Notes under the pieces: generated by a model | Seen by the model: only the letters and a program-made list of their open reading frames with translations | Told to the model about the DNA's origin: nothing | Databases searched by the model: none | Assembly: GCF_014199195.1 (NCBI RefSeq) | Contig: NZ_JACIJE010000010.1 | Coordinates: 1-64,000 of the forward strand | DNA length: 64,000 nucleotides | Origin: Neoroseomonas alkaliterrae | GTDB taxonomy: Bacteria > Pseudomonadota > Alphaproteobacteria > Acetobacterales > Acetobacteraceae | Reading direction: 5' to 3' | In this document: positions 21,509-30,787 of the stretch, in pieces | Layout of the letters: every line of letters begins with the position of its first letter | Numbering within the stretch: the stretch's first letter is position 1 | Program-made: the position numbers and the translations under genes

Positions 21509-22747
21509 TCAGCTGCGGACCATGGCGCAGCCGCCCTCGGCCAAGGGCCGGAAGGCGTCATCCGCCGCGCTGGTCTGCAGCAGCTTGTAGTAGTCGTGCT
21601 GGCCGCGGCTCTCGGCCGGGCTCTTCACCTCGAACAGGTAGGCCGGGTGCATCTTGCGGCCATCGGCGCGGATCGTGCCTTCGCCGAAGGCGTCGTCCGA
21701 GGTCGGCATCGCCTTCATGCGCGCGACCACGGCCCGGCCATCCGCCTTGGCCGCCGCCGCCCCCATCTCGGCCGCGGCCTTGAGGTAATGCAGCGTGGCC
21801 GAATAGTCGCCCGCATGGGCCATGGTGACGGGCGTGTCGTTGTTGACGCCCGCGCGGATGCGGCGGGCGATCGCGCGCGTCCGGTCGTTGAGATCCCAGT
21901 AGTAGGAGGCGCTGCAGACGAGCCCCTGCGCCGTCTCGAGCCCGAGCGCATGGACGTCCGAGATGAACATCAGCATGGAGGCGAGCTTGATGCCGCGCCG
22001 CGCCAGGCCGAACTCCGCCGCCTGCTTGATGCAGTTCGTGGTGTCCGTGCCCGCGTTGGCGAGGCCGATCACCTTCGCGCGCGAGGCCTGCGCCTGCAGC
22101 AGGAAGGAGGAGAAGTCCGTCGTGCCCGGGAAGGGCGTGCGGACCGCGCCCACCACGCGGCCGCCGGCATTGCGCACGAAGTTCGCCGTGTCGCGCTCGA
22201 GCGCATGGCCGAAGGCGTAGTCGGCGGTGATGAAGAACCAGGTGTCCCCGCCCGCGCGCACCATCGCCCCGCCGGTCGATTTCGCCAGCATGTAGGTGTC
22301 GTACACCCAGTGGATGGTGTTCGCGTTGCAGGCCCGGCCCGTGAGGTCGGAGGTGGCGGTCGAGGTGGCGATCGCGACCTTGTTCCGCTCGCGCGCGAGG
22401 TCCGAGACCGCCAGCGCCACCGAGGAGGCGGCGAGGTTCAGCACCATGTCCACGCCGTCGCGGTCGAACCACTGGCGCGTGATGTTCACCCCGACATCGG
22501 GCCGGTTCTGGTGGTCGGCGACGAGCAGCTCCGCGTTGATCCGCGGCGCCATCTCCTGGATCGCGACGCGGGCCGCTGCGATGCTGTTCGGCCCGTTCAG
22601 GTCGCGATACGGCCCCGACATGTCGGAAAGCAGCCCGATCTTCATCGGCGCGCCCTGGGCGCGCGCGCCGCGCGGCAGGGCGAGGCCGGCGGCGATGGGA
22701 AGGGCGCCGGCGCCCGCGAGGACCGTTCGTCTGCTGGTCTCGGTCAT
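21509..22747 (-). CDS. Liv-type ABC substrate-binding protein, paralogue 3
   Basis: This 412-residue periplasmic binding protein is the first copy after the ATPase genes. The signal peptide is at ~1-31 with a Ser-Arg-Arg n-region (TSRRTVLAGAGA) that could suit Tat or Sec. The mature protein starts MKIGLLSDMSGPYRD. It is the most divergent of the three in lobe 1 (EMAPRINAELLVADHQ, LNLAASSVALAVSDL) and in the RRIRAGVNNDTPVTM region, yet identical in the central FFITADYAFGHAL block. The ATG at 22747 gives the signal peptide. Upstream codons in the same frame belong to the antisense of livF. Confidence 0.9.
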   Translation of the reverse strand: MTETSRRTVLAGAGALPIAAGLALPRGARAQGAPMKIGLLSDMSGPYRDLNGPNSIAAARVAIQEMAPRINAELLVADHQNRPDVGVNITRQWFDRDGVDMVLNLAASSVALAVSDLARERNKVAIATSTATSDLTGRACNANTIHWVYDTYMLAKSTGGAMVRAGGDTWFFITADYAFGHALERDTANFVRNAGGRVVGAVRTPFPGTTDFSSFLLQAQASRAKVIGLANAGTDTTNCIKQAAEFGLARRGIKLASMLMFISDVHALGLETAQGLVCSASYYWDLNDRTRAIARRIRAGVNNDTPVTMAHAGDYSATLHYLKAAAEMGAAAAKADGRAVVARMKAMPTSDDAFGEGTIRADGRKMHPAYLFEVKSPAESRGQHDYYKLLQTSAADDAFRPLAEGGCAMVRS

Positions 22748-22797
22748 TCCTGTCGTCTCCCTGTTGTCCTGGTTTCCGGCCAGCCCTCTAGTGGGGC

Positions 22798-23544
22798 CTA
22801 GACGCCGAGGTATTCGTGCAGGCGGTCCATCGAGGCGTTGAGATCCTCGTTGCGGACCATGTCCACCACCTTGCCGTGTTCCATCACATAGTGGCGGTCC
22901 GCGACCGTCTGGGCGAAGCGGAAATTCTGCTCCACCAGCAGCACGGTGAAGCCGCGCTGCTTCAGTTCGCGGATGGTGCGGCCGATCTGCTGGACGATGA
23001 CCGGCGCGAGGCCCTCGGACGGCTCGTCGAGCAGCAGCAGCTTGGCGCCCGTGCGCAGGATGCGCGCGATGGCGAGCATCTGCTGCTCGCCGCCCGAAAG
23101 CTTCGTCCCCTGGCTGCGCGCCCGTTCCTTCAGGTTCGGGAAGAGTTCGTAGATCGTCTCGAGCGGCAGGCCGCCCGGCCGCACCACCGGGGGCAGCATC
23201 AGGTTCTCGGTCACGTCGAGCGAGGCGAAGATGCCGCGCTCCTCCGGGCAATAGGCGATGCCCGCGCGGGCGATGGCGTCCGAGCGCGCGCCGATCAGCT
23301 CGCGCCCCGCGTAATGGACCGAACCGGAGCGCTTCGGCACGAGGCCCATGATCGAGCGCAGCGTCGTCGTCTTGCCCGCGCCGTTGCGGCCGAGCAGCGT
23401 GACCACCTCGCCCTCGTGCACGTCGAGCGTCACGCCGTGCAGCACGTGGCTCTCGCCATACCAGGCTTCGAGGCCGCGCACCGCGAGCAGCGGGGAGGCG
23501 CCTTCCTGCGCGGCGATCGGCAGATCGGCGAGGGCGTCAGCCAT
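22798..23544 (-). CDS. livF: Branched-chain amino acid ABC transporter ATP-binding protein (LivF-like)
   Basis: The product is a 248-residue ABC ATPase. Walker A GRNGAGKTT lies at about 52-60, the Q-loop region AYCPEERGIFASLDVTENL near 100, the signature LSGGEQQMLAIARIL near 148-162, and Walker B LLLLDEPSEGLAP follows. The GIFASL(D/T)V segment is typical of LivF rather than LivG. Its start overlaps livG by 8 bases. Confidence 0.94.
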   Translation of the reverse strand: MADALADLPIAAQEGASPLLAVRGLEAWYGESHVLHGVTLDVHEGEVVTLLGRNGAGKTTTLRSIMGLVPKRSGSVHYAGRELIGARSDAIARAGIAYCPEERGIFASLDVTENLMLPPVVRPGGLPLETIYELFPNLKERARSQGTKLSGGEQQMLAIARILRTGAKLLLLDEPSEGLAPVIVQQIGRTIRELKQRGFTVLLVEQNFRFAQTVADRHYVMEHGKVVDMVRNEDLNASMDRLHEYLGV

Positions 23545-24310
23545 GGGCGGCCTCCACGGGCGGGGCTTCGGTGCCGAGATAGGCGGCGATCACATCCGGG
23601 TTGCGGGAGACGGCGGCGTAGTCGCCCTCGGCCAGCACCGCTCCGCGGGCCAGCACGGTGATGGTGTCGCACAGGCCCTGCACGACCTTGAGGTTGTGCT
23701 CCACCAGCAGCACCGTCCGCCCCTGCGCGACCCGCTTCACCAGCGCGACGACGCGGTCCACGTCCTCATGCGTCATGCCCGCGGTCGGCTCGTCGAGCAG
23801 CAGCATCACCGGGTCGAGCGCGAGCGTCGTCGCGATCTCGAGGGCGCGCTTGCGGCCGTAGGGAAGGTCGCTCGCCTGAAGATTGGCGTAGGCCGAAAGC
23901 CCGACATCCTCGAGCAGTTCGCGCGCCCGGTCCTCGTAGCGGCGCAGCAGCGTCTCGGAGCGCCAGAAGTCGAAGGAGCCGCCGCGCTCGCGCTGCAGCG
24001 CCACGCGCACGTTCTCGAGCACGCTGAGGTGCGGGAAGACCGCCGAGATCTGGAAGGAGCGCACCAGGCCGAGCCGCGCCACCTCCGCCGGCTTCATGCC
24101 GGTGATGTCGCGCCCGTCGTAGCGGATGGTCCCGCGCGTCGGCGGCAGGAACTTGGTGAGCAGGTTGAAGCAGGTCGTCTTGCCGGCGCCGTTCGGCCCG
24201 ATGAGACCATGGATCGTGCCGCGGCGGACGGTCAGGTTGACGTCGTTCACGGCCACGAAGCCGCGGAACTCCTTCGTCAGGCCTGTCGTCTCCAGGATGG
24301 CGTCGGACAC
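23537..24310 (-). CDS. livG: Branched-chain amino acid ABC transporter ATP-binding protein (LivG-like)
   Basis: The product is a 257-residue ABC ATPase and the first gene of the operon. Walker A GPNGAGKTT is at ~37-45. LivG-type features are RSFQISAVFPHLSVLENVRVAL, Walker B VMLLLDEPTAGMTHEDVDR and the H-loop VEHNLKVV. I chose the GTG at 24310 because GGGGAG stands about 10 bases upstream and the protein then starts as other LivG do (SDAILETTGLTKEF). An ATG 12 codons upstream lacks a ribosome-binding site. Confidence 0.9.
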   Translation of the reverse strand: MSDAILETTGLTKEFRGFVAVNDVNLTVRRGTIHGLIGPNGAGKTTCFNLLTKFLPPTRGTIRYDGRDITGMKPAEVARLGLVRSFQISAVFPHLSVLENVRVALQRERGGSFDFWRSETLLRRYEDRARELLEDVGLSAYANLQASDLPYGRKRALEIATTLALDPVMLLLDEPTAGMTHEDVDRVVALVKRVAQGRTVLLVEHNLKVVQGLCDTITVLARGAVLAEGDYAAVSRNPDVIAAYLGTEAPPVEAAHG

Positions 24311-24369
24311 CCTTGAAGCGCTCCCCTTCCCTCTGACGGCCTGCATGGCCGCTCGTGATACTGAGCCGC

Positions 24370-24399
24370 CATCTAGGCGCGGGGCGGCGTTGCGCGCAA
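24370..24399 (-). promoter_or_regulatory. Possible sigma70-type promoter of the liv operon
   Basis: Reading the minus strand, TTGCGC (24399-24394) and TAGATG (24375-24370) are separated by 18 bases and lie about 60 bases before the livG GTG. The tig terminator is just upstream, so a promoter is needed in this gap. The match is modest. Confidence 0.3.
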
Positions 24400-24453
24400 G
24401 GCGGGGCTGCATGAAGGCCCCGCATTTTCCTCTCCCCCGCGATCGCGCGCACG

Positions 24454-24510: not shown

Positions 24511-26289
24511 TCAGGCGGCGGTCAGCTCCTCGGGGCTGACCTGGCGCTCCGTCACCTTGGCCAGCTCGATCATGAAATCCACGACTTTCTCCTCGAACAG
24601 CGGCGCGCGCAGGCTTTCGGCCGCCTGCGGGTTCTTGCGGAAGAATTCGAGCACCTGCTGCTCCTGGCCGGGGTAGCGCATCGCCTCCTGGCGGACGGCG
24701 CGCGCCATCTCCTCCTGGCCGACCTGCACGTTGTTGGCGCGGCCGATCTCGGACAGAAGGAGGCCGAGGCGGATGCGGCGCTCGGCGATGGCGCGGTACT
24801 CCGCCTTCAGCGTCGCCTCGTCCTTGCCCTGGTCGTCGGCATCGAGGCGCCCGGCCTTGAGGTCGGCCTCCACGCGCTGCCAGATCTGCGCGAACTCGGC
24901 CTCGACCATGCCTTCCGGCACCGGGAAGCTCGCCTTCTCGGCCAGCGCATCGAGCAGCGCGCGCTTGAGCCGCATGCGCGAGAGCGAATCGTATTCCCGC
25001 TGCAGGGAGGAGCGGATGGCCTCCTTCAGCTTGGCGAGATCCTCCATCCCCACGGCCTTGGCGAGCTCGTCGTCCACCGCGCGCGGCTTGCGCGTCTTGA
25101 GCGCCTTGGCCGCGATGGTGAAGCGCGCGCGCTTGCCGGCGAGCTCGGCCGAGCCGTAGTCGGCGGGGAACACCACGTCGATGTCCCGGCTCTCGCCGGG
25201 CGTGAGGCCGATCATCTGCTCGGTGAAGCCGGGGATGAAGCCCTGGCCGCCGACCTCGATCGGCATGTCGGAGGCGGCGCCGCCCGCAAAGGCGCGCGCC
25301 TCGGGCTCCTCGGTCCCGGCGAAGGCGCGGGCGGGGCCGATGCGCAGCGCCACGTCGAGCGCGCCGGCCGGCAGCGCGATCTCGAGCGCCGCGGCGGGGT
25401 CATCGGCATCGGCGACGAGGCATGCGCGCAGCGCCGCGGCCCCGAGGCTCACGCCCTGGCGCGCGCCGCCCAGGACCAGCGCCGCCTCGGCCCCGCCCGG
25501 CAGGGCACCGGCGACAACCGTGGCGCGCCCCTCGAGCGTCACGGCCTGGCCCGCCTTGGCGGCGATGCCGCCGAAGCCGATCCGCACCGCGCCCGCCTGC
25601 GCCTCGCCCTTGAGCGCGAGGTCGAAATACGGAAGGCCGGATTCGGTGCCGATCGCGGCGATCTCCTGCTCCACGCCCTCCGGCAGCGCGATGCTCCAGC
25701 CCTGCGGGGCGCTGCCGGGCCTGCCGGGCACGGCGCCGAGGCCGGGGCCGTTGGCCAGCAGGTCGGCGGGCAGGCGGCCGGAGAAGTCGCAGACCAGCAC
25801 ATCGCCCGCCGCCGCGGCGCGCGGCTCGGCATCCTCGAGCGTGCCGTTGCGCTCGGCGATGGAGGCGAGCGCCTTCTCGACCGCCTCCTCCGTCGGTTCG
25901 GCCTTCAGCCGCTCGAGCGCGATGCCGGAGAACTCGGGCATCGGGACCTCGGGCAGCACCTCGAGGTCCATGCGGAATTCGAGGTCTGCACCCTCGGCGA
26001 AGTTCACCACCTCGATCTTCGGCTGGAGGGCGGGCTTGAGGCCGCGGTCGGTGACCACCTGGCGCGAGGCCTCGGTGACCGACTGCTCCAGCACCTCGCC
26101 CAGCACGGCCGCGCCGTAGCGCTGCTTGACCACCGAGAGCGGCACCTTGCCCGGGCGGAAGCCCGGCATGGTGGCGGTCTTCGCGATCTCGGCGAGGCGC
26201 CTGTCGCGCGTCGAGGCGATGTCCCCCGCGGAGAGGGTGACGGAATAGGCGCGCTTCAGCCCGTCATTGGCGAGCTCGGTGACCTGCAT
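24511..26289 (-). CDS. tig: Trigger factor with a large domain inserted in its PPIase domain
   Basis: Trigger factor is the ribosome-docked chaperone that receives nascent chains at the exit tunnel. The ribosome-binding domain is at ~1-115 with the signature GFRPGKVP (43-50). The FKBP-type domain begins with GDVLVCDFSGRL (162-173) and resumes at AFAGGAASDMPIEVGG (333-348), GFIPGFTEQMIG (350-361) and LAGKRARFTI. The C-terminal helical chaperone domain runs ~400-592. Total length is 592 against a usual ~430-450. The excess is a single insert at about 174-330 between two adjacent strands of the FKBP domain. The frame is continuous with normal codon use. GGAAG precedes the ATG at 26289. tRNA-Leu lies 40 bases upstream; clpP, often next to tig in alphaproteobacteria, does not follow. 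Confidence 0.95.
   Translation of the reverse strand: MQVTELANDGLKRAYSVTLSAGDIASTRDRRLAEIAKTATMPGFRPGKVPLSVVKQRYGAAVLGEVLEQSVTEASRQVVTDRGLKPALQPKIEVVNFAEGADLEFRMDLEVLPEVPMPEFSGIALERLKAEPTEEAVEKALASIAERNGTLEDAEPRAAAAGDVLVCDFSGRLPADLLANGPGLGAVPGRPGSAPQGWSIALPEGVEQEIAAIGTESGLPYFDLALKGEAQAGAVRIGFGGIAAKAGQAVTLEGRATVVAGALPGGAEAALVLGGARQGVSLGAAALRACLVADADDPAAALEIALPAGALDVALRIGPARAFAGTEEPEARAFAGGAASDMPIEVGGQGFIPGFTEQMIGLTPGESRDIDVVFPADYGSAELAGKRARFTIAAKALKTRKPRAVDDELAKAVGMEDLAKLKEAIRSSLQREYDSLSRMRLKRALLDALAEKASFPVPEGMVEAEFAQIWQRVEADLKAGRLDADDQGKDEATLKAEYRAIAERRIRLGLLLSEIGRANNVQVGQEEMARAVRQEAMRYPGQEQQVLEFFRKNPQAAESLRAPLFEEKVVDFMIELAKVTERQVSPEELTAA
25300..25770 (-). other. tig: Beta-rich domain inserted in trigger factor (residues ~174-330)
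   Basis: This part of the tig frame has no counterpart in ordinary trigger factors. It reads as a beta-sandwich: GWSIALPEG (197-205), then GTESGLPYFDLALKGE (214-229), VRIGFGG, a Gln-Ala-Val strand, and GALDVALRIGPAR (309-321). The order 'WsI..G - GTE.GlPY.D(l/i)...G - ...vDvtLRIG.p' is the pattern I know from accessory, carbohydrate-binding-like domains of phage tail and structural proteins. That resemblance is from memory, not a search. The boundaries are estimated from where canonical FKBP sequence stops and resumes. Confidence 0.7.
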
Positions 26290-26328: not shown

Positions 26329-26413
26329 TGGTGCGGGCGAAGGGATTCGAACCCCCACGGCTTGCGCCACCGGAACCTAAATCCGGCGTGTCTGCCAGTT
26401 CCACCACGCCCGC
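26329..26413 (-). tRNA. tRNA-Leu (anticodon UAG)
   Basis: The 85-base cloverleaf has acceptor arms GCGGGCG/CGCCCGC, discriminator A and an encoded CCA (26331-26329). The anticodon arm CCGGA/TCCGG has loop TTTAGGT, with the anticodon TAG complementary to 26377-26379. The T-loop GGTTCGAATCC is canonical, and a long variable arm follows, as expected for tRNA-Leu. It is transcribed toward tig, 40 bases away. Confidence 0.95.
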
Positions 26414-26509: not shown

Positions 26510-28894
26510 TCAGCCCAGCAGCGCCTCCGCGCAGGCATCGAGGATGGCCTCCGCATCGAGCCCGTATTCCCGGTAGAGGTCCGGGATGTCGCCCGCCTGG
26601 CCGAAACGGTCCACGCCGAGCGGCACCACCCGCTGCCCGCGCACCGCGCCCATCCAGGCATGGGCCGCCGGATGGCCGTCGAGCACCGTGACCAGCGCCG
26701 CATCGCGCGCGAGCGGGGCGAGGATGCGCTCGATATGGGAGGTTGCGCGGACGCCGCCGCGCACGCTGCGCCGGGCCGCCAGCCAGTCGGCGTGCAGGCG
26801 GTCGGGGCTGGTGATGGCGAGCAGGCCCGCGCCGGGTTCCTCCGCGCGCAGTTCCGAGAAGGCCTCCATGGCCTCGGGCGCGATGGCGCCCTGGTAGGCG
26901 ATGGCGATGCGTGCGCCCGCCGCGGGCGGCACGACCCAATGCGCGCCGGCGATCACCGCCGCGGGGTCGAGGGTGCGCTGCGGCTGCTCCAGCGCGCGGG
27001 TCGAGAGCCGCAGCCAGACCGCCGAGCCATCGGGCGCCTGCATGTGCGCGAAGGCGTGGCGCAGCAGGATGGCGAGCTCGTCGGCATGGGCGGGCTCGAA
27101 ACTCGCGAGCCGGTCGGCGGCCATGCCGATCAGCGGCGTGTTCACGCTCTGGTGCTGCCCGCCCTCAGGCGCCAGCGTCAGGCCCGAGGGGGTGGAGACC
27201 AGCAGGAAGCGCGCATCCTGGTAGCAGGCGTAGATCAGCGCATCGAGGCCGCGATTGACGAAGGGGTCGTAGACCGTGCCGACCGGCAGCAGCCGCGCGC
27301 CGTAGAGCCGGTCGGCCAGACCGAGGCCCGCCAGCACCAGGAACAGGTTCTGCTCCGCGATGCCGAGCTCGATGTGCTGGCCCTCGGGCGACATGCCCCA
27401 GCGCTGGGCGGAGGCGAGTTTCGCATCGCGGAAGACGTCGTTCTTCTTGTGCCGGTCGAAGATGCCGCGGCGGTTCACCCAGGGGCCGAGATTGGTGCTG
27501 ACCGTCACGTCCGGGCTGGTGGTCACGATCCGCTTCGCGAGTTCGGCGAACTCGCCCTGCCCGCGGCCGATCTCGGCCAGGATGTCGCCGAAGGCCGCCT
27601 GGGTCGCGATCCGCCGCCCCTCGCCCACCCGCGGCGGGGCGAAGGCCGCCGGGACATGGATCGCGGGCGCCGAGAGCGCGCGCCCGCCCGGCGTCAGCGG
27701 CTGCGCGAAGGGGACGGAGGCGAGGAAATCCCTCAGTTCCTGCTCGGGGATGCCGAGGCCCTCGAAGGGATCCCACTCATGCCCCTCGCGGATGCCGAGG
27801 GACTGGCGGAAGCCGGCCATCTGCTCCTTCGTCATCAGCCCGGCATGGTTGTCCTTGTGGCCGGCGAAGGGCAGGCCCATGCCCTTGATGGTGTAGGCGA
27901 TGAAGCAGGTGGGCTGGTCGCCCTCGGCGTCCTGGGCGCGGAAGGCCTCGATCAGCGTCTCGATGTCGTGCCCGCCGAGATTGGTCATCAGCGCCGCAAG
28001 TTCGTCATCGGTCAGCGGGTCGATGATGGCGCGGATGCCCTCGGAACGGCCAAGGTCAGCGAGCAGCGCCTGCCGCCAGGCCGCGCCCCCCTGGAAGGTC
28101 AGCGCGGCGTAGAGGGAGTTCGGGCAGTCGTCGATCCAGCGGCGCAGCGCCTCGCCGCCCGGCCGGGCGAAGGCGGCTTCCAGCCGGCGGCCGTATTTGA
28201 GGGTGACGACATTCCAGCCCATGTCGCGGAACAGCCCCTCGATGCGCCCGAACAGCCGGTCGGGCACCACCGAATCGAGAGACTGGCGGTTGTAGTCCAC
28301 CACCCACCAGACATTGCGGATGTCGTGCTTCCAGCCTTCGAGCAGGGCCTCGTAGATGTTGCCCTCGTCGAGCTCGGCATCGCCCACCACCGCCACATGC
28401 CGGCCCTGCGGCAGCCCCTCCGGCGCGAAGCCGTGCAGATGCACATAGTCCTGCACCAGCGAGCCGAAGGAGGCGAGCGCCACGCCGAGCCCGACCGAGC
28501 CGGTGGAAAAATCCACCTCCGCGCCGTCCTTGGTCCGCGAGGGATAGGGCTGGATGCCGCGGAACTGGCGCAGCGTCTCGAGCCGCTCGCGCTGCTGGCG
28601 GCCGAGCAGGTAGTTGATGGCATGGAAGACCGGCCCCGCATGGGGTTTCACCGCCACCCGGTCCGCCGGGCGCAGGATGCCGAAATAGAGCGCGGCGAGG
28701 ATCGAGACCGCCGAGGCGCAGGAGGCCTGGTGCCCGCCCACCTTCAGCCCGTCCCTGTTCGGGCGGATGTGGTTGGCGTGGTGGATCATCCAGGCCGAGA
28801 GCCAGAGCAGCTTGCGCTCCAGCGCGTGCAGGATCTCGACGCGCCGCGCCGCATCCGGCGTGTCGAGGCGCCTTCCCTTCCCCTGCGCGGTCAT
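26510..28894 (-). CDS. AceE-like thiamine diphosphate-dependent (transketolase superfamily) protein
   Basis: The product is 794 residues. The ThDP domain includes GGHQASCASAVSILAALYFG (53-72), STGSVGLGVALASFGSL (130-146) and the ThDP/Mg motif GDAELDEGN (171-179), followed by VVDYNRQSLDSVV. The second half has the pyrimidine domain (LGIAEQNLFLVLAGLGLAD) and a C-terminal transketolase domain. The layout and the DELDEGN-style motif fit the homodimeric pyruvate dehydrogenase E1 (AceE) group rather than transketolase, but it is about 100 residues shorter and has no E2 or E3 gene nearby. It may be a free-standing 2-oxoacid decarboxylase or transferase. Followed downstream by tRNA-Leu and tig; upstream on the same strand is a small membrane protein gene. 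Confidence 0.8.
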   Translation of the reverse strand: MTAQGKGRRLDTPDAARRVEILHALERKLLWLSAWMIHHANHIRPNRDGLKVGGHQASCASAVSILAALYFGILRPADRVAVKPHAGPVFHAINYLLGRQQRERLETLRQFRGIQPYPSRTKDGAEVDFSTGSVGLGVALASFGSLVQDYVHLHGFAPEGLPQGRHVAVVGDAELDEGNIYEALLEGWKHDIRNVWWVVDYNRQSLDSVVPDRLFGRIEGLFRDMGWNVVTLKYGRRLEAAFARPGGEALRRWIDDCPNSLYAALTFQGGAAWRQALLADLGRSEGIRAIIDPLTDDELAALMTNLGGHDIETLIEAFRAQDAEGDQPTCFIAYTIKGMGLPFAGHKDNHAGLMTKEQMAGFRQSLGIREGHEWDPFEGLGIPEQELRDFLASVPFAQPLTPGGRALSAPAIHVPAAFAPPRVGEGRRIATQAAFGDILAEIGRGQGEFAELAKRIVTTSPDVTVSTNLGPWVNRRGIFDRHKKNDVFRDAKLASAQRWGMSPEGQHIELGIAEQNLFLVLAGLGLADRLYGARLLPVGTVYDPFVNRGLDALIYACYQDARFLLVSTPSGLTLAPEGGQHQSVNTPLIGMAADRLASFEPAHADELAILLRHAFAHMQAPDGSAVWLRLSTRALEQPQRTLDPAAVIAGAHWVVPPAAGARIAIAYQGAIAPEAMEAFSELRAEEPGAGLLAITSPDRLHADWLAARRSVRGGVRATSHIERILAPLARDAALVTVLDGHPAAHAWMGAVRGQRVVPLGVDRFGQAGDIPDLYREYGLDAEAILDACAEALLG

Positions 28895-28973
28895 GTCCCG
28901 GTCTCTCCCGTCGAGGTTCGTCCGGGAGACTATGGGCGTTCCGCCGCGGGCCGAGAAGGCCGCGCGCCGCGGC

Positions 28974-29105
28974 TCAGCCGGCGCGGCGGCGCAGCGGGAA
29001 GGCGACCGGATCGCCGCCGCGGCGGGCGGCCGCGGCCGGGCGGCGGGTGCCGAGCGCCAGCAGCAGGCCAGGCAGGGCGAAGAACAGGATCACGCTGAGC
29101 GACAT
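28974..29105 (-). CDS. Small membrane protein, 43 residues
   Basis: The product starts MSLSVILFFALPGLLLALG, one N-terminal hydrophobic helix, and continues as an Arg/Ala-rich cytoplasmic tail (RRPAAAARRG, LRRRAG). GAGGAA lies about 5 bases before the ATG at 29105, better than for the longer in-frame start at 29192. It lies 79 bases upstream of the AceE-like gene on the same strand. The hydrophobic start and ribosome-binding site argue for a real gene; no family is recognised. Confidence 0.4.
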   Translation of the reverse strand: MSLSVILFFALPGLLLALGTRRPAAAARRGGDPVAFPLRRRAG

Positions 29106-29335
29106 GGCTTCCTCTCGCTCCGCGGCGCGCTGTCCGGTCCGCGGGGCGATGTGATGCGCCTTCGCGCCCGCCTCCGCCGTGATGCGCCTCACGCGGCGGG
29201 CGGAACGCCTCAGGCGGGGAAGAAAGGTTCGACCGTTCGCCCGCTGGTCTCACGCGCGGGGCTGGTGGGGTGGCCGCGCGCGGACCCCGATCCTGCTACC
29301 CTGCCGACAAAGGCCGATCCTTACTCCGAGGGGTA

Positions 29336-30787
29336 TCAGGCGCGGGCGAGGCGGCGCAGCGCGGTGGAGACGGCGCGCTTGCCCTCGCCCATGTAGATCT
29401 CGTGGTTCTCCTCGATCCGTTCCGGATCATAGAGGTAGTTCACCATCAGCCCGGCGGACTGGCGGTAGCCGTTCTCGGAGACGTCGCCGCGCCAGTTCAG
29501 CCGCTCGATCCGCGCGCCGTTGGAGAGGTGGAAATGCGCCACCGGGTCGCGCGCCCGGCCGGGCCGGCCCGGCGCGTCCTCCTTGGCGAGGTAGAGCGCG
29601 CAGAGGCGGGTCAGGATCGGCTCCAGCACCTTCTGCGCCGCCTCGTCGCGCTTCCAGGCGGTATCCGAGAGAAGCCGCTGCAGGGCGACGAGGCCGGGCG
29701 GGCGGGGCTGCGTGCCCTCGGCCTCGGGCGCGCCGGCCTCGGGCGCGGGCAGCGCCGCCTGCGGGGGCATGAGGGCGAGGAGCGCCTTTTCCTCGGCGTC
29801 GGTCAGGGCGATTTCCCCGGCCATGAGCGCCGCATCGAGCCATCGCCGATAGCCTGGAATGGGAGAAAGCGTGCAGAACGTCTTGATGTTCCTGAATTCG
29901 TTCCCCAGAACCTCGACCACGCGCTTGATCAGGAAATTGCCGAAGGAGATCCCGTCCAGGCCCCGCTGGCAGTTGTTGATGGAATAGAAGACGGCGGTGT
30001 CCGCCTCGCGCGCATCGAGGACCGGCGCCTTCTCGTCCAGCAGGCGCTGGACGCTGTCCGACATGCCCTTGACCAGCGCGACTTCGACGAAGATCAGCGG
30101 TTCCTCGGGCATCCGCGGATGGAAGAAGGCGTAGCAGCGCCGGTCGGAATCGAGCCGGTTCTTCAAGTCCCGCCAGGTGCGGATCCGATGCACCGCCTCG
30201 TACTGCACCAGCTTCTCGAGGATGACCGCCGGGGAATGCCAGTCGATCCGGCGCAGTTCCAGGAAGGCGACGTCGAACCAGGCGGCGAGCAGGCCTTTCA
30301 GGTCGGTCTCGAGCGCCTGCAGCGTCTTGTCGCCCGCCATGCCGGAGAGCAGCGCGGCACGCATCTCCACCAGCAGCTTCACCCCGTCCGGAATGGCGGC
30401 GAAGGCGGTCAGCAGGCGGATGCGCGGGGGCTCGAGGGCGCGGCGCAGGCGGGCGGTCGCAACGGCGCGCTCGGCCGGGTCCTGCGCGGCGGCCACCGCC
30501 TCCATGGCGCGGGCCACGGCGGCCGGGTCGGAATCGAAGCCGGCGAGCGCGCGCAGGAAGTCCATCCGGCCGTCGCGGTCAAGCGCGCGATAGGCCTCGG
30601 CGAGGCCGGCGGCGCGGTTGCGGGCGGAAACCTCCCCGCCGCGGCCGTCGAGCGCATCGCGCAGGCGGGCGGCAATGTCGGCCTGCTGCTCGCTGACGCC
30701 GACGGCAGCCGCCATGTCCCGCCAGAGCGAGGAGACGCGGCGCAGCGCCCTGTCGAGCAACCCGTCCTGGACGGCGACCTCGCTCAT
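29336..30787 (-). CDS. Malonyl-CoA decarboxylase
   Basis: The product is 483 residues and converts malonyl-CoA to acetyl-CoA and CO2. The N-terminal helical domain (~1-170) is followed by the GNAT-fold catalytic domain. Diagnostic pieces are EPLIFVEVALVKGMSDSVQ (229-247), NNCQRGLDGISFGNFLIKRV (271-290), FCTLSPIPGYRRWL (304-317) and the catalytic AHFHLSNGA with His420. The nucleophile-activating Ser is expected in the GMSDS segment (243 or 245). The family has its own malonate use gene cluster (matABC) in rhizobia, but no matB or matC is near; it may instead remove malonyl-CoA formed by side reactions. Alone on its strand segment. Confidence 0.95.
   Translation of the reverse strand: MSEVAVQDGLLDRALRRVSSLWRDMAAAVGVSEQQADIAARLRDALDGRGGEVSARNRAAGLAEAYRALDRDGRMDFLRALAGFDSDPAAVARAMEAVAAAQDPAERAVATARLRRALEPPRIRLLTAFAAIPDGVKLLVEMRAALLSGMAGDKTLQALETDLKGLLAAWFDVAFLELRRIDWHSPAVILEKLVQYEAVHRIRTWRDLKNRLDSDRRCYAFFHPRMPEEPLIFVEVALVKGMSDSVQRLLDEKAPVLDAREADTAVFYSINNCQRGLDGISFGNFLIKRVVEVLGNEFRNIKTFCTLSPIPGYRRWLDAALMAGEIALTDAEEKALLALMPPQAALPAPEAGAPEAEGTQPRPPGLVALQRLLSDTAWKRDEAAQKVLEPILTRLCALYLAKEDAPGRPGRARDPVAHFHLSNGARIERLNWRGDVSENGYRQSAGLMVNYLYDPERIEENHEIYMGEGKRAVSTALRRLARA

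Follow-up and report, generated by a model that had tools for sequence, protein, structure and literature searches.

A predicted jelly-roll domain related in sequence to phage tail accessory domains interrupts the prolyl-isomerase domain of trigger factor in Neoroseomonas and, patchily, in other Acetobacteraceae

Trigger factor (TF), the product of the tig gene, is to our knowledge near-universal in bacteria, with an architecture that is normally little varied. In Escherichia coli TF, the client pocket is formed by F168, F177, I195, F198, F217, Y221 and F233, and His222 helps to hold clients, as described in PMC6166725. Extra domains have been described in other FKBP proteins: according to PMC11013033, the IF domain of SlyD sits in the FKBP flap, and guest chaperone domains placed in the flap of FKBP12 increased its folding activity and left its activity on a short peptide unchanged. 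Here, analysis of a 64,000-nucleotide stretch of the Neoroseomonas alkaliterrae genome (contig NZ_JACIJE010000010.1, positions 1 to 64,000; hereafter the window) revealed a tig gene whose product carries an additional domain inside its peptidyl-prolyl isomerase (PPIase) domain. Judged from profile comparisons, this insert is homologous to accessory domains of phage baseplate and tail proteins. No description of a TF with such an insert was found among the titles and abstract openings listed by searches of the open-access literature.

The tig open reading frame is located on the minus strand (24511..26289), running from its start at 26289 to its end at 24511 with 592 codons and a stop in an unbroken frame. 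Its product (P0001) begins with the N-terminal ribosome-binding domain (residues 1-143; 25861..26289, minus; Pfam Trigger_N, E 3.6e-37), which bears the signature MPGFRPGKVPLS, and ends with the C-terminal chaperone body (residues 402-592; 24514..25086, minus; Trigger_C, E 6e-38 over residues 418-574). Between them, the FKBP/PPIase domain is divided into a first part that ends at a hairpin tip (residues 150-173; 25771..25842, minus; aligned to E. coli TF, 1W26, through residue 172) and a second part supported by both alignment and Pfam (residues 330-401; 25087..25302, minus), the Pfam FKBP_C match (residues 325-386) being confined to the region after the insert. In the alignment with 1W26, residues 1-173 correspond to E. 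coli residues 1-172 and residues 330-589 to E. coli residues 173-427, which leaves a single continuous insert of 156 residues (residues 174-329; 25303..25770, minus) between the adjacent E. coli residues 172 and 173, shortly before the active-site Phe177. All seven pocket residues are kept in the same alignment, as F169 ahead of the insert and F334, I352, F355, F374, Y378 and F390 in the second part. The initial annotation, made from the sequence alone, had described a 592-residue product with all three TF domains intact and one continuous insert of about 157 residues at 25300-25770; Pfam and the 1W26 alignment confirmed the former and slightly narrowed the latter, and E. coli TF, which aligns right up to both ends of the insert, has no residues opposite it, so that the insert does not read as ordinary FKBP sequence. 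Its mention of an unbroken frame and host-like codon use also held, with a GC content at third codon positions (GC3) of 95.0% for the insert against 95.4% elsewhere in the gene. GC3 was slightly lower in the insert than in the core in 8 of the 9 genomes computed, and total GC reached up to 81% across the insert, in keeping with its Ala/Gly-rich residues.

Structure prediction of the insert returned a beta-sandwich resembling family 4 carbohydrate-binding modules (CBM4), with a predicted local distance difference test score (pLDDT) of 94.6. The model shows a full jelly roll of the CBM4/CenC type, the fold expected of CBM4/9 modules. Profile searches with the insert alone gave little: no Pfam family matched at E up to 1, and hence no CBM4/9 family profile; the best PHROG match had E 0.43; and a sequence search of the PDB with the insert profile yielded no match below E 0.4. 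A weak CBM_4_9 match was obtained for 1 of 13 phage domains of the type described below.

The first link with phages came from a whole-genome search of relatives, which identified three proteins of 434-437 amino acids in one genome (G033), each with the domain lying within a Mu gp48-type baseplate protein. Comparison of independently constructed profiles then aligned the TF inserts of the genus with the phage domains almost over their full length (hhalign 99.7%, E 3.9e-26, 167 columns), and TF inserts from outside the genus gave a similar result (E 6.9e-27, 176 columns); the two groups of TF inserts matched each other with E 2.7e-23. When the window's own genome was searched with a profile built from phage domains only, just two matches were obtained, namely the window's TF (E 5.5e-16, 106 of 184 positions) and a second TF, TF2 (E 7.7e-24), and this search detected no copy of the domain outside these two proteins. 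Seventeen carriers other than plain TFs were known, of which 10 were scanned with Pfam and PHROG. Seven of these 10 matched a tail-category PHROG, including one that also matched Pfam GP46; of the other three, L101 matched nothing but a PHROG of unknown function, L095 proved to be a divergent TF, and L115 gave no match. Phage collections contained few close relatives of the phage-type domain, represented by two viral-contig loci and by Azospirillum phage Cd, in which the domain occurs in a gene annotated as tail protein and is 39% identical to the domain of L034; the other 18 of the 20 matches listed with phage Cd concerned flanking parts of tail proteins or had less than 30% identity. A tblastn search of the insert against named phages gave only a weak match (E 0.3). 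The suggestion that a foreign, beta-rich domain of carbohydrate-binding-like, phage-tail type had entered TF is thus supported by the CBM4-like predicted fold and by near-full-length homology to Mu gp48/gp46-type and other tail-protein domains.

Within the genus of the window, probably Neoroseomonas, a TF with the insert was found in 33 of 35 genomes, including that of the window, and no insert-free TF was encountered among the 35; the two remaining genomes yielded no TF match (G008) or only an N-terminal TF fragment (G026). In one of these 33 genomes, G012, the tig frame contains a TAG codon, which lies not in the insert but close to the beginning of the gene. Two separate database proteins, P0002 and P0003, are 95% identical across the insert and, together with the 33 genus genomes, indicate that it is not an assembly join, an outcome that the initial annotation had considered in case all relatives lacked the domain. 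The probability of an assembly error or of misread FKBP sequence is accordingly vanishingly small, the same architecture recurring in the genus and in database proteins of other origin, and E. coli TF lacking any counterpart of the insert. The proposal of a fixed acquisition is upheld, or nearly so, inside the genus, but not beyond it, where the domain is patchy even within genera, nor for its sequence, which is hypervariable.

At the family level, a TF match was obtained in 373 of 397 genomes, and the insert in at least 28, made up of all 13 genus members in the sample plus 15 genomes from seven other genera; since at most three candidates were scored per genome, these insert counts are lower bounds. 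A profile of the insert detected the domain anywhere in 47 of 299 family genomes, and, as we read the matches, in the main TF of 20 of these. Both states coexist within genera, carriers representing, on our reading, 3 of 14 genomes in g28, 3 of 13 in g41, 1 of 6 in g40 and 1 of 8 in g61. A search of named records, in which 46 of 79 loci drawn from the best 80 of 288 matches were of insert length as judged by match length, pointed to Plastoroseomonas hellenica and P. arctica, Siccirubricoccus deserti, S. soli and S. phaeus, Pseudoroseomonas coralli, P. aestuarii, P. oryzae and P. vastitatis, Pararoseomonas baculiformis, Roseomonas rosea and Roseomonas sp. E05, as well as metagenome-assembled genomes. 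In a sample of 385 genomes of the class, including a few from the same family, the insert profile matched two genomes with at most eight candidates scored in each: the window's own, and G536, in which the match was a phage-tail-like protein, so that no TF carrier of the domain was seen in the other 384. Among insert-free relatives, some, such as Roseococcus and Rubritepida, have the canonical short hairpin (DGTEFEGG and similar sequences), and others, such as Roseomonas pecuniae with GRLVEGEGDEATVGEPFPGG, a longer one whose ends resemble the edges of the insert. Such long hairpins may be scars of loss, or could represent the former acceptor site of the insert.

The sequence of the insert changes rapidly. 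Mean column entropy was computed over 47 related TFs, a partly overlapping set made up of the window's protein, 15 loci of the genus and 31 proteins from databases. It amounted to 1.24 bits for the insert, as against 0.51 for the PPIase strand that precedes it (residues 150-171) and 0.38-0.39 for three other parts of the protein. Within the insert, conservation is seen at the two edges but not in the interior. The ratio of nonsynonymous to synonymous change (omega) was higher in the insert than in the core in 19 of 20 hand-chosen, non-independent pairs, and was below 0.35 in the insert in 12 of them. Two pairs illustrate different modes of change. In L055 and L080, the cores are 97% and the inserts 34% identical, and differences at fourfold sites amount to 0.16 in the core and 0.44 in the insert (p <0.001), a pattern that suggests replacement by a diverged copy. 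In L004 and L006, identity is 67% for the insert against 92% for the core, and the fourfold differences of the two are equal (0.17 and 0.18), which suggests fast protein change in place. Of 37 pairs, 12 showed a difference between insert and core at fourfold sites with an uncorrected p <0.05, and 25 did not.

Based on 58 rows with the insert columns excluded, the tree of the TF core, which carries a long-branch warning, mostly follows genera and needs eight changes of state, at least six of them forced by well-supported branches, in a count that is blind to gain versus loss. Because this tree groups insert-bearing with insert-free genes by genus over eight changes, it is the domain and not the gene that came and went, and whole-gene transfer of an insert-bearing tig is disfavoured. 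A tree of the domain itself was built from 66 of the 132 domain sequences that passed a filter, a set from which L081, the insert of Pseudoroseomonas aestuarii, is absent. In this tree, 39 TF inserts fell on one side and the phage domains on the other, with a branch support of 97/94, a split that may have been helped by compositional difference. A position among the phage domains was not rejected by approximately unbiased (AU) tests for the Plastoroseomonas inserts (p 0.377) or for L066 (p 0.283), nor thereby separate capture in either of these lineages; with this result and the difference in composition, the domain may have been captured once or several times. Profile scores do not favour a single capture either, the E value between TF groups (2.7e-23) standing against 3.9e-26 and 6.9e-27 between TF and phage domains.

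How might a chaperone make use of such a domain? The explanation that we place first, with chances that we judge evenly balanced, is that a phage-tail module was exapted as a putative accessory binding domain beside the PPIase cleft. The module would have been captured in Roseomonas-like Acetobacteraceae, either once and followed by many losses or several times, and would provide, next to the prolyl-isomerase cleft, an extra platform to keep a partner protein or certain nascent clients close to the catalytic centre. The new binding surface that the initial annotation expected the insert to project is plausible. By analogy, the working principle would be that of the SlyD IF domain, but in another loop and with an unrelated fold, and since the TF core works without the insert, as insert-free relatives show, the surface of the insert would be free to diversify. 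Several observations weigh against exaptation as a binding domain. Many relatives lack the insert, which is thus dispensable to the role of TF; it is about three times more variable than most of the protein; and its omega ranged from 0.59 to 1.22 in 6 of the 20 pairs. Such variability and such omega values are more readily explained by weak constraint or by conflict than by a generic role in client binding. In addition, TF inserts differ from phage domains by a more acidic composition and a lower content of Ser, Thr, Asn and Gln, the equivalent of E. coli His222 is Gly379 in the window's TF, and the full-length model has a predicted template modelling score (pTM) of 0.58, which makes the position of the insert relative to the cleft uncertain.

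Hypervariability and patchiness count for two serious rivals at once. The insert would, in one of them, be a tolerated decoration, a self-folding domain of phage origin on a permissive loop, with little effect, harmless and occasionally lost. This reading is favoured by the patchy presence and high variability, by the variable-length hairpins of insert-free relatives, which may be scars, and by a window copy 15-23 residues shorter than the other inserts compared in the main TF of the genus (TF1). We nevertheless find this unlikely, given that 33 of 35 genus genomes keep the insert with no stop inside it, that omega is below 0.35 in 12 of the 20 chosen pairs, and that in TF2 the identity of the insert remains within 3 points of that of the core in 10 of 10 pairs. 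The other rival invokes conflict with phages: a decoy or sensor derived from a phage tail and carried by the ribosome-bound chaperone would meet nascent tail subunits or their partners and spoil or sense assembly, an arms race driving its change, gain and loss. Although homology to baseplate and tail domains, the hypervariable interior, the congeners L055 and L080 (core 97% and insert 34% identical, 0.16 and 0.44 at fourfold sites) and the six or more forced events of gain or loss all agree with it, the variation could reflect relaxed constraint and the search of the window's own genome showed no copy of the domain outside its two TFs, and we regard such a role as improbable. A more specific form, less probable still, would see in the insert a hypervariable, exchangeable phage-tail cassette on a housekeeping chaperone, serving during translation as a decoy or sensor, favoured by selection for being diverse, and subject to gain, exchange and loss from one sister species to the next on a constant core. 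Finally, the CBM-like fold might have retained putative binding of glycans, or of glycosylated or cell-wall-precursor molecules in the cytoplasm, delivering TF or its clients; this is very improbable, as the insert matches no Pfam family, the protein is presumably cytoplasmic, and tryptophan is scarcer in 98 TF inserts (0.88%) than in 33 phage domains (1.35%; related sequences unweighted).

The domain was also found in paralogues and in variants of different length. TF2 (G000:C3:394820-396604; L002; L032:6170-8740) is 51% identical to the window's TF and has the insert as well. The position of Tyr378 (E. coli Y221) is occupied by His in 5 of 5 TF2 copies from five genus genomes, other pocket residues vary, and the ribosome-binding signature reads GFRPGEAP in L002 and GFRRGEAP in L039 and L040, versus GFRPGKVP in TF1. 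In G016, two loci at contig ends (L033:1862-2584 and L043:2035-2697) apparently represent one further TF paralogue, with a divergent N-domain devoid of the GFRxGK motif followed by the insert and a stop, no PPIase remainder or C-domain being seen. The divergent paralogue at L095:706-2805 (G184:C3) combines the insert with a Trigger_C match (E 2.4e-14); the main TF of that genome, L059, is insert-free. In the window copy, shorter by 15-23 residues than the other genus TF1 inserts compared, gaps occur where many of these read GFNERSAD..FL and FARPV; the inserts of P0002-P0011 have nearly the same length as that of the window. As for its surroundings, tig is located just downstream of a tRNA-Leu gene (26329-26413, minus), beyond which lie a transketolase-like enzyme and a malonyl-CoA decarboxylase (26510-30787), and its neighbours on the other side (21509-24412) are a pair of ABC ATPases, including a branched-chain-amino-acid type, together with a periplasmic binding protein. 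The best ClpP match is on a separate contig (C9), unlike the proximity of tig and clpXP reported elsewhere (PMC7804408).

One would hardly expect a housekeeping protein to harbour a domain that changes this fast and is present or absent from one close relative to the next. The presence of both states inside the same genera offers a natural experiment on the role of the PPIase head of TF. The locus also bears on the entry of folded domains into conserved chaperones and on the reuse of phage structural modules by their hosts. Compared with known systems, the window's protein is a TF (Tig; Pfam PF05697, PF00254, PF05698) in its three domains, its ribosome-binding signature (GFRxGKxP) and its seven-residue PPIase pocket, and departs from it by a folded domain of 156 residues at a hairpin tip, at the equivalent of E. 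coli residues 172/173. The insert shares near-full-length homology and end motifs (N..P/G..GA..G.PG..P..W to D.TLR.) with Mu gp48/gp46-type baseplate and phrog_5939/1419 tail accessory domains, yet it sits in a cellular chaperone and not in a phage structural protein, and TF inserts are more charged, with fewer Ser, Thr, Asn and Gln residues. From CBM4, CBM22 and CBM16 modules (CBM_4_9, PF02018) it differs by an identity of about 9% and the lack of a Pfam match. The IF domain of SlyD and SlpA, of about 65 residues against 156 and with a fold that we take to be unrelated, occupies another loop, the TF insert being found at site 172/173 before F177 and not in the flap, if the flap of TF lies where we assume. 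Like the guest domains of FKBP12, the TF insert is near the pocket, but its host is a chaperone with client sites of its own.
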